Shown: piece after piece, positions 445 through 63,900 of the stretch
How the letters are laid out: each line of letters opens with the position of its first letter
Position numbering within the stretch: position 1 is the stretch's first letter
Origin: Mesostigma viride
Lineage: Eukaryota > Streptophyta > Mesostigmatophyceae > Mesostigmatales > Mesostigmataceae
NCBI GenBank assembly: GCA_009746045.1
Contig: RPFO01000026.1
Location: 1,987,286 to 2,051,285, forward strand
Reading direction: 5' to 3'
DNA length: 64,000 bases
Notes under the pieces: generated by a model
Databases searched by the model: none
What the model saw: only the letters and a program-made list of their open reading frames with translations
Told to the model about the DNA's origin: nothing
Program-made: the position numbers and the translations under genes

Positions 445-3400
445 ATGCTAATCAATAAATCCCGGCTATCCCCGCAGTCGGCCACACGGCTGAGCGCCGC
501 AAAGGGAGGCGCCATGACGGGTGCCTATGGCGGGCGCACGATGGGGGTGGGCGGGAACCCAGACATGCGCTACCAGGGAGTCGTTCGCGCACGCGGCCTA
601 CCCTACAGGTACGCTGTGCCACGGTCCCCCCCACCCACAACGGATGCTGTTTGTGTCACGGTGTGCTGTCGGCTGATTAGAGTAGGAAGGGTACGACCTA
701 CCCTGCAAGTACACCGGGTGTCATTTCTCCCTCATCAAAATGGTTCTGATGGATGCCCTTGGTGTATAATTTGTTCTATTCCCTCTATTCAAAATGTTTA
801 TCCATGATGCCCTTGGTGTATAATTGGTGCTATTCCCTCTGTTCAAAATGGTTATCAATGATGCCCTTGGTGTATAATTGGTGCTATTCCCTCTATTCAA
901 GGTGTTTATCGTGGATGTCTTTGGTGTGTAATTACTGTGGGGTGGGTGCCCGTTATCATGCGGCGTCGCCGTATAGGTACGAGGTACAAAGGCCGGCATT
1001 TCCCCCCCACTCGAATTCCTGGTTTTGGTGGATGCCACTGGCCTATATTAACTGGCCTAGGATGACTCGGCCACTGGCTAGAAATATCAGTGCTAGTAGT
1101 TGTCCTAGTACTGGACAGTAAGATGGACCAAAGCTAAGCGCCCCGGGGTGCAGCCGTATAGGTAGGCGGGGCGGGGTGCCCCAGAAAAGAGCCTTCTTAT
1201 GTATGCGTATAAATCCCTAGGCATGCGTAGATCCCTGGGCATGTCCTGCATGCCTGCTTTTGCACAACGTGCACGCTTGGCTTTGCCGATGCTGGCTCAA
1301 CTTATCTAGCAGCGTGATGGACCTGGTTGTAAAATTAAAGACAATATCTCCTGAACGAAATGCGCTCTGCATGTTCCTCCCTGAATGCGGCATTCCTGAA
1401 TCTCATTCCAACTGCACCATCGCGTTCACCTTTTCCTCGTCTTGTTTGCCCCTTGCTCCCCTCTCCCTTCGTCTCTCTCTCTCTCTCTCTCTCTCTCTCT
1501 CTCTCTCTCTCTCTCTCTCTCTCTCTCTCTCTCTCTCTTCCCCCCCCTCTCCCTCCCTTCCTCCTCTCTCTCTCTCTCTCTCTCTCTCCTCTCTCTCTCT
1601 CTCTCTCTCTCTCTCTCTCTCTCTCTCTCTCTCTCTCTCTCTCTCTCTCTCTCTCTCTCTCTCGCTTCCCCCCCCCTCTCTCTCCCTTCCTCCCTCCCTC
1701 TACAGCGCATCGGTGGCGGATGTCTCCGAGTTCTTCCGTGGTTATGACATCGTTTCCGATGGCATCTTCATGGTGACGTCGCCAGATGGCCGACCCACCG
1801 GAGAGGTGAGGGTAGCTCCTCTTGTCAATTGTCTCCACCTGGAAAGGCGAGGTTCACGCCCCTTGACACGTGTAGCTCTTTCACCGCGTCGGCTGCAAGA
1901 TAGGTGAGGGTAGCGCCTTTCCTCTTCAAGGACTTCCCCACGCGAGAGGTGAGGGTAGCTTTTCTGTTCAGGGTGTTTACTGCTGGAGCGGTGAGGATTG
2001 CGCTGTGAACCATGTCTCTATTGCCCCTGGATCCATGTTTCCTCATGGAGAGGTGAGAATGTCGCCCTTAGGAAAACCATGCTTTCAATCGCACGGTGGA
2101 GACGTTGGTGATGTGCTTCGCTTGTACTGCGCTTGTTGTAGTGGACATCAAACATCAAACATCAAACAAACATCAAACATCAAACATCAAACATCAAACA
2201 TCAAACATCAAACATCAAACATCAAACATCAAACATCAAACATCAAACATCAAACATCAAACATCAAACATCAAACAACAAACAACTGCCCCCCAGCTCG
2301 CCGGCGTGCTTATGCCAGATGCGAGGGGCCATGAAATCAGAATGGGGTTTTAAAATATTTGATGTTGTCTTTTTTTTGTTTTGACGTCCTTTACCCAATC
2401 AAACACCGCCTCTTTCATGCACTGTGCTGCTTCCCCCCTCCCCTCCCCCCCCCTACCCCCCTCCCTTTTCACTGGTGGCTTGCCTGTCTTTCACACGGCT
2501 TCCCCCCTAACGCCTGAATCGGCCTGCCTGCCCATTTCTCCTTCTACCCCCCCCCCGCCACCACCCTACCACCACCCACCCCACCCCACCCCACCCCACC
2601 CCACCCACTGTGCAGGTATTTGTGGAATTTGTCTCAGAGGACGTTGCCCGCGGCGCGATGAGCCGCCATCGTGAGAAGCTGGGCGCCCGCTACCTGGAGC
2701 TCTTCCGCAGCTCCAAGGGAGAGATGATGCTGGCGGGCCAGCAGTCGGCGCACGCGCGGCCCTTCGGCATGTACGGCGGCGCGCCGGGGGGGGGCCACAT
2801 GGGGGCCGGGGTGGCGGGCATCCTGGGGGGGGCGCACCCGCACCATCCGTTGCCGCACATGTTTATGGGCATGGGCGCGGGCGCAGGGGGGATTCCCGGG
2901 GGGCAGGGCGGGAATGTGTGTGTCAAGATGCGGGGGCTCCCTTACAGCGCGACCCAGGTAGGGGGACATCGGGCGGGGGCCCTGTGCAACACTGAGATTG
3001 ATGTGCTACGCTAACCCTAAACCCTAAACTCCAAACCCTGAAACCTGAAACCTGAAACCTGAACCCTTAACCCTTAACACTGAACCCTGAACCCTGAACA
3101 GGTAAGGGGACATCGGGCAGGGCCCTGTAGAAGATATTGTTGATGGAGATGATACTCCTGGCAGTTGCCTGTTAAATGTGGTCTGGCTGCTTGTTCATGT
3201 TTGCCTGGTGGCAGATGGGAGAAAGGCTCTGCAGCTTATTTGCTGGCCATCCGTTCTATTTCCACACAGATCCTTTTTGCTTCTAGCCCGCCCATTGCTT
3301 CTAGTCTGCGCATAACAATGGGGCCCGGGCGTTCCTTGATGTTGAGACCATAGCGATTACAGGAATGCGGGCAGGAATATTTCATAGGCCATCTTCGTAC

Positions 3401-60900: not shown

Positions 60901-63900
60901 GGCTGAGCGCATCCCCAAGGACCTGGCCCGCACGTCCTCATACCTCACCAACCCCGTCTTCCACCGGTGAGTGTCTGGTTCTAATGCCTGTTGGGAGTGG
61001 TTTTATAGCACACCGCATCAACAGATCTGTCCCATAACGTCAAGGCGTGTGCATGCGATTAGTCATTCGGGATTGAACAAAGCTGGTTGATGGCGCACCA
61101 AGTGGGATGAGTGGGTGCTACATATCAGGATATATCAATGACTCCCTTTTGCTATTGGGGGCCGCACACCACCTGTTATTAACTAGAATCTAGAATAATG
61201 CGATTTCGAATTGCGATTGGATATTGTACCCCCTCCAAAATGCAACTGTGGACAAAGGGCTGCCCCCCATGTGTATTTCCCCCTCATTGATTCTTATAAT
61301 AATCCCTGCTCGCCCGCCCTCCCCCTTTACTGCCCAGCACTTGCTGGCACCTGGCACCGTTATCATTCACTACCACACCGAGCAACGAGTACGCGCTACC
61401 TGTCTGCTTGACCTGACCCCACTACCATTCCTGTATGTGTTTTTGTTTGTTTATGCTTTATTTTTGTGTTCTTGGCTCTTGCTAAACAACTAACCCCATG
61501 GCCGCATGGATCATGCACTGCCTTCCTATTTGAGATGACACCCCATGGCTGTATCTCTCTCTGTTCATGATTGTGCCCCCATCTGCCCATGATCTTGCTC
61601 GCGCCCTCTCCCCTCGTAATTTTTCCTACCCCCAGGTACCGCACCGAGCACGAGCTGCTGCGCTACATGAGCCGGCTGCAGGCCAAGGACCTGTCGCTGT
61701 GCCACAGCATGATCCCGCTGGGGTCGTGCACCATGAAGCTGAACGCCACAACGGAGATGATGCCCGTGACATGGCCCGAGCTGGCCAACATCCACCCATT
61801 TGTGCCCAAGGACCAGGCCGCTGGGTAAGTCTCCGAATATACTTATTACAAGGCTGCCCTCAAAAGAAGTAAGATTGCGTCATAAGAAAATGTTCTAACA
61901 TTCTATTTGGGTCAGGATGGTGCCTCCTTGCAACTTCATGAAGTCAGCCATCCGTTTGTGCCTGGGACTGGGTCGCTGGGTTAGTGCGCTCCTATTACCC
62001 TCGGCTTGGATATGACTGTGTCGTGATGCCCACTTGTCTTGGCTGGCTATGCCCCTTCCCGAAAAGCAGAGGCCGCTGGGTTAGTGCTGCCATGTGTACA
62101 GTGGCCCGCGTTGCTGTCCTATCGACGCTTCTTATTCTTACCCCCCTGCAGCTACCAGGAGTTGTCTGCTTATGTCCATCTTGCTTTGCCTCCTTGCACC
62201 CCCTTTGTTTCCCATCCCGCCGCTGCCCCCTCGCAGGTACCAGGAGATGTTCTCTGACCTGGCGGACATGCTTTGCGAGATCACGGGCTTCGACGCCATG
62301 TCCCTCCAGCCCAACAGTGGCGCGTCCGGAGAGTACGCGGGCCTGATGGCCATCCGCGCCTTCCACCAGGCCAATGGCGACCACCACCGCGACGTCTGCA
62401 TCATCCCCGTGTCTGCGCATGGGACCAATCCCGCGTCCGCCGTGATGGCTGGGATGAAGATCATCCCCGTCTCGACCGATTCGGCGGGAAACATCGACCT
62501 CGCGGAGGTCAAGGCACGCGCGGAGGAGAACAAGGACAAGCTGGCCTGCCTCATGGTCACCTACCCTTCGACCCACGGTGTGTATGAGGATGGGATCCGG
62601 GAGATGTGCGAGGTGATTCACAAGAATGGCGGCCAGGTCTACATGGACGGCGCAAACATGAACGCACAGGTCGGGCTCACCTCCCCGGGCCACATCGGCG
62701 CCGATGTTTGCCATCTCAACCTCCACAAGACGTTCTGTATTCCTCATGGTGGTGGTGGGCCTGGCATGGGGCCCATCGGAGTCAAGGCCCACCTGGCTCC
62801 GTTCCTCCCCAGCCACCCCGTCGTCCCCACGGGCGGTCTCCCCGTCCCCCAGGGCAAGAAGCTCGACCCGTTCGGTTGCATGGCCGCGGCTCCCTACGGC
62901 TCGTCCCTCATCCTGCCGATCTCGTTTGCATACATCTCCCTCATGGGCGCGGAGGGCCTGCGCAAGGCGTCCGTTCAGGCCATCCTGAACGCCAACTACA
63001 TGGCCAAGAAGCTCGAGAACCACTACCCGATCCTCTTCCGTGGGCCCAACGGGACCAACGCGCACGAGTTCATTGTCGACCTGCGCGGGTATGAGGCGAC
63101 TGCAGGCATTAAGGCGGAGGACGTGGCCAAGCGGCTCATGGACTACGGGTACCACGCGCCGACCATGTCGTGGCCCGTCTCCGGCACGCTCATGATTGAG
63201 CCGACGGAAAGCGAGAGCAAGAGCGAGCTGGACCGCTTTGTGAACGCGATGATCGCCATCCGCGAGGAGATCCGCAAGGTCGAGAACCAGAGCTGGCCCA
63301 AGGACAACAACCCGCTGAAGGTGAGGGCAGTGAGCCTTTTCTCTTTTATTTTATAAAAACTTTATTTTATAAAAACCTGTATTGAATTTTACGAATGCTT
63401 TTGTAGCGTGTATACTTTTTGTGGGGGGTCTAATTGCGGGAAGTAGGATGTGGTAGATGTTGTGTGTGGCTAGCCCAAGGACACTCCCCCACTCAAAGTG
63501 AGGGGCGGGGAAGCATGGGGAAATGGGGGGGATTGGGCGTTGTGGGATGCAGCACGGGTTGGCTTTTGCTGGCCAAACGAGGGGCCCGCTCAACATGATG
63601 GGGGCAGTAGGGGGGAGGACCTTGGGCTGACAGTGGGAGCAAGCTTCTTTACTCCTTGTTCTGTCAATATCCTGGATCGAACAAAAAGTGGCATAGCAAC
63701 ACCAGCGAGTTGACTGTGACTCTTATTTATATGACTAAACTATTACTCGTTCGTGCACTCCCCGGGTGTCCTCCTTTGCCATGTGGCCCACCATGCACAC
63801 ACCGCATCCCCTACCCCTTCCCCTTATCCACACACACATACCTGCCACACATACACAAACACCAGAACGCGCCCCACCCCCCAACAATGGTGATGTCGGA

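Follow-up and report, generated by a model that had tools for sequence, protein, structure and literature searches.

Worn copies of exon borders in introns of Mesostigma viride, probable remnants of short local tandem duplications

The window, a 64,000-nucleotide stretch of nuclear DNA from the streptophyte green alga Mesostigma viride (contig RPFO01000026.1, positions 1,987,286 to 2,051,285), carries an RRM gene (ESRP/hnRNP F-H-like), a pfkB-family gene, BBS4 and a glycine dehydrogenase gene (GLDC). The RRM gene starts roughly 9.4 kb upstream of the window; position 445 is an unused start codon, and the exon found there starts at 478. The BBS4 model matches the annotated protein Mesvir1/15285 exactly, and the annotated proteins of BBS4 and of most of the RRM gene exclude the border copies (echoes) listed here. 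In 197 kb of neighbouring DNA, host genes were few and retroelement-like open reading frames many. The exons used as reference points and the echoes are as follows, fractions giving identical over aligned columns:

478-608 (+): RRM gene exon, exact 5' joint to the Mesvir1/15280 protein P0121; donor 608
694-748 (+): weak copy of donor junction 608 (39/58 columns); centred query above all swaps
1706-1805 (+): RRM gene exon, translation matching P0121; donor 1805
1899-1918 and 1937-1994 (+): two clear copies of donor junction 1805, by alignment
After 1994, to about 2060 (+): two further, weaker copies of the 1805 junction, read by eye only
2616-2957 (+): RRM gene exon; donor 2957
3100-3128 (+): copy of donor junction 2957 (27/30), by alignment
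4736-4792 (+): RRM gene exon; donor 4792
4868-4913 (+): copy of donor junction 4792 (38/47), by alignment
6666-6736 (+): RRM gene exon, by comparison with the protein; donor 6736
6864-6912 (+): copy of donor junction 6736 (35/50), by alignment and swap test
8342-8366 (+): acceptor-side copy of 8601-8625 (24/25), upstream of a predicted exon at 8615
8973-9003 (+): copy of an exon end with its predicted donor 8899 (25/31), by alignment
26521-26619 (+): copy of pfkB-family gene donor junction 26369 (68/104 columns), by alignment
43543-43586 (+): acceptor-side copy of BBS4 exon start 43735 (36/44), by alignment
43735-43854 (+): BBS4 exon, model identical to P0001; donor 43854
43903-43942, 44027-44069, 44137-44158 and 44250-44278 (+): four copies of this BBS4 exon end, by alignment
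44470-44523 (+): second, weaker acceptor-side copy of BBS4 exon sequence 44844-44898 (40/55)
44714-44777 (+): acceptor-side copy of BBS4 exon start 44833 (53/65), by alignment
49427-49475 (+): copy of donor junction 49281 (42/55), by alignment
50808-50830 (22/23) and 50887-50948 (43/62) (+): two copies of the BBS4 stop-codon end, by alignment
60396-60431 and 60510-60564 (+): two copies of GLDC donor junction 60323
61371-61402 (+): acceptor-side copy of GLDC exon start 61636 (28/34), by alignment
61945-61997 (+): copy of GLDC donor junction 61824 (39/54), by alignment
Near 62065-62094 (+): second copy of the 61824 junction, by reading only, the alignment being placed in the exon interior
62142-62189 (+): weak acceptor-side copy of GLDC exon start 62237 (37/51)
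63469-63504 (+): copy of GLDC exon end 63320 (28/36), by alignment

A sequence-only reading of the window had claimed that copies of exon edges lie just outside the exons, and such copies were present at every place it named (9/9 donor-side, 4/4 acceptor-side and 2/2 stop-codon places), all as direct, same-strand copies; parts of 1902-2060 and 61966-62090 were confirmed by reading of the sequence and the rest by alignment. At the weakest of these places, 62140-62170, the exon-only query gave a p value of 0.038 and the junction-centred query scored above all 20 swapped introns. The copies at 694-748, 8973-9003, 44470-44523, 61371-61402 and 63469-63504 were additional to that reading. Donor copies stand about 80 bp or more 3' of the donor and many include the intron start, and after 43854 every donor copy found stands before the acceptor copies. 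Similarity had also been said to fall with distance, but no clear trend of this kind was seen; after 43854, for example, copies 87, 218, 317 and 427 bp away had identities of 33/40, 37/43, 20/22 and 26/31.

To separate these echoes from background, repeat arrays were masked and each donor query was scored against its own intron and 20 swapped introns, one of the 21 introns being dropped because masking, or its length, left too little target sequence. The own intron scored above all 20 swaps at 12/20 donor junctions, where about one was expected, and none of 20,000 intron permutations reached the observed mean. Exon sequence taken 40-80 nt inward gave 0/20 matches in the same swap test, and reverse-complement donor-centred queries exceeded the 95% level of the swaps in 0/20 cases. 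Exon-only queries, which lack the splice consensus, still scored above all swaps in 8/20 cases, and exon-only 40-mers compared with random segments reached p <= 0.01 at 8/20 donors and 5/20 acceptors. The donor profile peaked at the junction itself (0/17 at -60, 2/19 at -40, 8/20 at -20, 12/20 at 0, 4/19 at +20 and 1/18 at +40, with a single stray match, 1/14, at -100). Ungapped edge-straddling matches numbered 16 at offsets of 30-300 bp and were absent from the tested bins between 300 bp and 7 kb (3-5 kb lying outside the test), and the copied exon part was short, 2-58 nt at donors with one exon-interior alignment left out. The echoes are real. Chance, splice-consensus similarity or low complexity would draw on a donor consensus common to the sites and on a sequence rich in simple repeats, and retains a negligible probability, being refuted by masking, swaps, exon-only queries, reverse complements, permutations and recurrence outside the sample.

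The pattern extended beyond the window. In the part of the RRM gene upstream of the window, where junctions were exact from the protein, 5/8 unseen donors were echo-positive. Chaperonin-gene donors were positive in 9/18 cases, with matches spread over six contigs; of 30 chaperonin loci, three had no in-frame exon, one was a duplicate and 18 allowed a usable centred donor test, among them one (L045) with in-frame stops in the family match. A predicted gene in the upstream block, gene 'S', was set aside for its implausible splice sites; its seven introns gave no centred donor match, and the upstream-block count is 7/10 donors without it and 7/17 with it. LRR and U1-70K-like genes were added with predicted boundaries only, one of the seven LRR introns beginning from a 10-nt predicted exon; their names come from proteins assembled by reading predicted exons, which matched LRR and RRM in Pfam, and the RRM-matching gene is labelled U1-70K-like. 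Overall, about half of the exon ends examined in Mesostigma viride have worn copies in the next intron.

Local direct repeats cover about 30% of the tested intron bases (7850/26520), in agreement with the proposal that introns are lengthened, and they are also common away from exons: 139/846 deep-intron windows had a local repeat when arrays of period >15 were left unmasked, and these matches were clustered, 56 of the 139 coming from one intron upstream of the window. Against deep windows of the same introns, 17/26 donor junctions were positive compared to 3.48 expected (0/20000), roughly a 5-fold excess, while acceptor junctions gave 4/24 compared to 3.66 expected and, in a wider set, 10/41 compared to 6.66. 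Donors and acceptors differed directly (17/28 vs 5/26, Fisher p 0.0025). The border specificity that had been claimed is supported only in part: donors exceeded deep intron, and acceptors resembled it, local repeats being present in deep intron as well. An excess of more than 10-fold over deep intron, from which a focus on the junction had followed, was dropped once arrays of period >15 were left unmasked, since this raised the deep matches up to 139/846 and brought donors to about 5-fold and acceptors to about 1.

The donor excess was mainly found among decayed copies and not clearly among young ones. With 42 donors, 27 were positive at a score of >=22 (4.9 expected), 20 at >=26 (3.2), 13 at >=30 (2.7), 6 at >=36 (2.2), 1 at >=44 (1.8) and 0 at >=55 (1.6). 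With the U1-70K-like and LRR genes added (51 donors), the counts were 34 at >=22 (7.4 expected), 19 at >=30 (3.9), 12 at >=36 (3.1), 4 at >=44 (2.7) and 2 at >=55 (2.4). The missing excess of young copies is a weak result, because young copies are few. Exon windows at least 60 nt inward were copied in 1/86 and 0/93 cases, and such an almost uncopied exon interior requires either that units be short or that selection remove longer copies of exon sequence.

These observations probably reflect a general intron process, in which short tandem duplications decay and remain visible at donors through the conservation of the exon. Units measuring from tens of bp up to about 200 bp, like those that would fill introns of Mesostigma viride generally, may straddle an exon end; the first copy would then retain the exon and its donor, so that splicing and protein would be unchanged, and the extra copies would turn into intron and decay neutrally. 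Border duplications would stay recognisable longer than intron-intron ones since selection fixes the exonic original and only the copy diverges. A mirror duplication at an acceptor would place a spare AG upstream, where it would be usable first, and acceptor-side events are therefore probably removed more often. We infer the continued use of the first donor, the removal on the acceptor side and the duplication mechanism, which may be slippage or microhomology-mediated repair.

Tandem duplication was also the best mechanism among those considered, as had been suggested. Two young arrays outside the window have clean units, with homology running through the entire unit: one has at least nine copies (91-96% identity) of a 61-bp exon-intron unit, the other two copies and a partial third (92%) of a 91-bp unit. 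Within the window, spacer homology at p <= 0.01 was found in 2/18 copy pairs, in two introns: between the unit at 43854 and the unit 218 bp further (136 columns), and at 49427-49475, where it runs on past the copy; the other 16/18 pairs had none. Mismatches between exon and copy were even over the codon positions (38/178, 30/181 and 36/185), and coding use of the copies was rejected on this basis. In aligned pairs, identity was 440/544 on the exon side and 238/298 on the intron side, the latter being high overall because the first 16 intron bases are similar; further in, it was lower (48/73 at +17 to +30 and 22/30 at +31 to +45), as predicted if decay is one-sided in the exon part and two-sided in the intron part.

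An alternative explanation is that the mutational process itself is focused on the junction, local duplications arising more often at 5' splice junctions through transcription- or splicing-linked nicking, R-loops or staggered-break repair with filler. The donor excess over deep intron and its persistence at scores >=36, together with the sharp peak of the profile at the junction, speak for such a focus. In simulations, uniform duplication at a constant rate gave junction/deep ratios of about 1-2, and only an old burst raised the ratio as far as about 5-6 at the junction, or 9 at most when the queries were exon-only, so that a steady process would be insufficient for the ratio of about 5 observed at donors; a junction-focused model beat the uniform models by 9-10 log units on the window profile with long-period arrays masked, the simulations, compared with this masked profile only, being a guide and no test of the final counts. 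In addition, 6/21 copies have a repeat array within 20 bp (0.97 expected, 2/5000). The copy at 3100-3128 lies directly 3' of an AACCCTG-type array (3013-3099) and that at 49427-49475 directly 3' of a GT array. Array proximity and spacers without homology could mean repair with filler instead of plain tandem duplication. However, young copies do not clearly exceed expectation at donors, acceptors have no excess, and the stop-codon end of BBS4, which is not a splice site, is copied too (one of three gene ends tested). We regard a junction-focused process as unlikely. About as unlikely is the wider proposition that in Mesostigma viride 5' splice junctions genome-wide preferentially gain or retain short local duplications, with introns growing outward from their exon borders and about half of the exon ends carrying fossils of themselves.

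It is improbable that the copies are kept by selection as decoy or alternative donors that the spliceosome uses or samples, as the supply of decoy splice sites in the sequence-only reading would have it. Copies are commoner at donors than at acceptors, and junction-crossing alignments match the GT bases at 24/25 positions compared to about 0.8 around them, but this count is biased by the search. Among copies found by exon-only queries, the GT was in register in 9/20 (12/20 including three a few bases off), close to the level of neutral decay; GT bases matched at 24/40 compared to 63/80 for exon positions -4 to -1, without conservation above the flanks, and identity was 0.61 at +3 to +6 compared to 0.79 at -4 to -1. 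If the copied donors were used, the added length would be a multiple of three in 4/10 cases and a stop would come in with 6/10, the register being uncertain in three. Conserved decoy donors were rejected on the basis of the copies found by exon-only queries. It is more improbable still that mobile or introner-like elements inserted at exon borders and left long target-site duplications. Some copies do border inserted sequence that ends in a simple repeat (2958-3128 and 49282-49475), resembling a retroposon tail with a target duplication, but the spacers of different introns are mutually unrelated, which largely refutes this explanation in the sample, and copy series and clean tandem units do not fit it. 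A blastn comparison of introns with the window (E <= 1e-3) found no element family common to the spacers within the window; it listed only the echoes, inverted matches, one pfkB-gene intron against intergenic DNA and the 4.1-kb BBS4 intron against sequence elsewhere. General tandem duplication, tolerated at donors, remains the simplest reading.

To our knowledge, intron lengthening without transposons is poorly documented, and decay usually erases its traces. Because exon borders are fixed reference copies, old events of intron growth become countable and datable at every gene. If the donor excess exceeds what visibility explains, 5' splice junctions would be indicated as a mutational hot spot or a target of selection. 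Introns of M. viride are reported to average 1142 bp, with repetitive elements making up 30.1% of intron space (PMC6947507), and local tandem duplication could explain part of the remainder.

The literature searched contained no description of this exon-border echo pattern. We know of no report of border-straddling units at about half of the donors in a genome sample. Intronic minisatellites, and plant tandem duplications formed at staggered nicks, are similar in being short, local, noncoding duplications whose units range from tens to hundreds of bp. Closer in kind is the gain of introns through tandem genomic duplication of an exon stretch containing AGGT, as outlined in a review (PMC3443670) and presented for potato RdRp (PMC4974935). 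In both settings, as far as these accounts describe intron gain, splice-site DNA is duplicated harmlessly since the spliceosome removes the extra copy; there, however, a new intron arises inside an exon, whereas in Mesostigma an existing intron is lengthened by a border-straddling unit whose copies have decayed or been amplified in tandem. The signature of such a gain, in which the end of the upstream exon reappears immediately before the acceptor of an intron born inside a former exon, was absent from the Mesostigma echoes. Cases of direct repeats beside an insert share with some Mesostigma copies the flanking of simple-repeat filler, but the Mesostigma repeats copy the border inside an existing intron, sometimes serially, and the two young cases are clean tandem arrays. 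Tandem duplication near exon borders shapes gene structure elsewhere by creating new intron positions, whereas in Mesostigma an unchanged border is copied within the intron.

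The window (G000:C887:1987286-2051285, part of a 439.9-Mb assembly) contains four multi-exon genes, all on the + strand:

Window 5' part, first exon in the window at 478, + strand: RRM gene, with relatives named ESRP or hnRNP F/H
+ strand: pfkB-family kinase gene (PF00294)
41991-50749, + strand: BBS4 gene, translation compared with the annotated protein Mesvir1/15285
+ strand: glycine dehydrogenase gene, aligned to a solved structure

The BBS4 model translates exactly into Mesvir1/15285 (405 aa). For the RRM gene, eight joins match the annotated protein Mesvir1/15280 (P0121) exactly, the last one entering the exon at 478, and six more joins within the window agreed with it by sequence comparison; junctions beyond 8177 are predicted. 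Mesvir1/15280 runs into the intron at 8178 and stops (region 8178-10366), and its annotation lacks an additional RRM encoded by the predicted exons 8615-8899 and 10166-10366. Glycine dehydrogenase aligned without gaps over joins 60323/60866, 60966/61636 and 61824/62237; a single residue spans the first join, and the alignment does not reach the last.

At every place where the sequence-only reading had put a copy of an exon edge, we found a direct copy of the neighbouring edge, by alignment and, for parts of two series, by reading. Exon-only 40-mers exceeded random segments (p <= 0.01) at 8/20 donors and 5/20 acceptors. The same reading had proposed swapped introns as a check, and the excess it asked for was seen with queries centred on the donor junction, which outscored all swaps outright at 12/20 donors and whose mean was reached by 0/20000 permutations. 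By the same measure, exon-only donor queries won at 8/20, an intron-only query (+8..+48) at 4/19 and a control from exon -80..-40 at 0/20; the donor signal was maximal at the junction and small from 40 nt inward in the exon. Acceptors won at 5/18 (centred) and 4/21 (exon-only), and their exon +40..+80 control at 1/21. Over 29 introns of the window and the upstream part, copies were found at 17/28 donors versus 5/26 acceptors (p 0.0025).

The pattern recurs beyond the window within the reachable sample, which included 87 kb of upstream and 110 kb of downstream sequence. The eight upstream RRM-gene introns, whose junctions follow from identity with the annotated protein, gave 5/8 donors with centred queries and, at acceptors, 1/8 centred and a different 1/8 exon-only (control exon -80..-40: 1/8 at p <= 0.01, 2/8 above all swaps). 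Among other genes with predicted junctions, copies were found at 3/3 donors of a U1-70K-like gene, 4/7 of an LRR gene and 0/7 of a third, whose junctions are doubtful. A Pfam search for Cpn60_TCP1 yielded chaperonin exon loci on many contigs, and here 9/18 centred donor queries, spread over six contigs, 5/19 exon-only donor queries and 4/21 acceptors were positive, with controls at 0/19 (exon -80..-40), 1/15 (intron +200..+240) and 2/16 (intron +300..+340). Two of these loci, L023 (contig C1641) and L024 (C887), have identical chaperonin exons and parallel neighbouring matches, which suggests a duplicated or haplotype-split region of the assembly.

Under broader masking of arrays, several with periods of 20-65 among them, deep intron looked nearly devoid of local repeats, and simulated uniform duplication fitted the profile worse than focused duplication. 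This reading proved too strong: once masking was limited to periods of 15 or less, 139/846 deep windows carried a local repeat against 8.5 expected by chance (grouped in 32 clusters, of which 13 were single windows), and local repeats were present in 25/28 introns, spanning 7850/26520 tested bases. Donor junctions still exceeded windows drawn at random from the deep parts of their own introns (17/26 vs 3.48 expected, 0/20000); acceptors showed no such excess (4/24 vs 3.66 expected). Acceptor-side copies are probably lost because a spare upstream AG would disturb splicing.

In the pooled set of 42 donors (window, upstream and chaperonin introns), 27 scored at least 22 (4.9 expected from deep intron), 13 at least 30 (2.7), 6 at least 36 (2.2), 1 at least 44 (1.8) and none at least 55 (1.6); exon-only queries, as raw counts, reached 44 at 3/47 and 55 at 2/47. 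Adding the U1-70K-like and LRR introns (n = 51), the latter bringing in young arrays, gave 12 vs 3.1 at 36 or more, 4 vs 2.7 at 44 or more (equalled or exceeded in 999/4000 draws) and 2 vs 2.4 at 55 or more. Donors are thus enriched in old copies and not clearly in young ones, as predicted if exon-anchored copies stay recognisable longer. A modest real focus of duplication on donors is also possible, because the roughly five-fold excess lies above constant-rate simulations, yet within the range obtained from an old burst.

Two young arrays in the LRR gene, both on the minus strand, show the mechanism, a tandem repeat of an exon-intron unit. At donor L016:1835, a 61-bp unit, which joins the last ~36-40 nt of the exon to the donor plus 21-25 nt of intron sequence, is tandemly repeated in at least 9 copies at 91-96%, and at donor L016:372 a 91-bp unit with 32 nt from the exon and 59 nt from the intron occurs in two copies and a partial third at 92%. 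The window echoes look like older forms of such straddling arrays. Four copies lie downstream of donor 43854, with spacer homology at offset 218, and at donor 49281 spacer homology extends beyond the copy. Repair with filler may also contribute, because the other 16 of 18 copy pairs tested had no spacer homology at p <= 0.01 and 6/21 copies had a repeat array no more than 20 bp away (0.97 expected).

Mismatches between exon and copy were flat across codon positions (38/178, 30/181, 36/185), and identity was 0.81 on the exon side, 0.80 over the whole intron side and 0.66-0.73 past +16, as expected if the exon and splice site are fixed and the remainder drifts in both copies. The suggestion that copies supply decoy splice sites found no backing: in 20 copies located from exon sequence alone, GT was in register in 9, and identity (0.79 at -4..-1, 0.61 at +3..+6, 0.40 at +13..+20) gave no sign of retention as splice sites.

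The window also carries other repeats. The tetranucleotide CATC fills 13777-14648 (~218 copies, 99% matches), telomere-like CCCTAAA and degenerate AACCCTG arrays lie within the gene region at 173-209 and 3013-3099, and an intronic 124-bp stretch at 3525-3648 aligns with its reverse complement at 87%, like a MITE palindrome. From ORF reading, long ORF regions at 16039-17445 and 18278-19579 appear to be retroelement-like near copies in opposite orientation; ORFs at 20132-21148, 29196-29894 and 51291-51950, close to this pair, are presumably reverse-transcriptase-like. Two 65-bp x 2.1 arrays of identical consensus, 33107-33241 and 40428-40562, are separated by 7.3 kb and are perhaps both ends of a single element.

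Introns of the M. viride genome are reported to average 1142 bp, with repeats occupying 30.1% of intron space (PMC6947507). Among the papers listed, no title or abstract opening described exon borders copied inside their own introns. Intron gain through tandem genomic duplication and through break repair has been described (PMC3443670, PMC2891723, PMC4974935).
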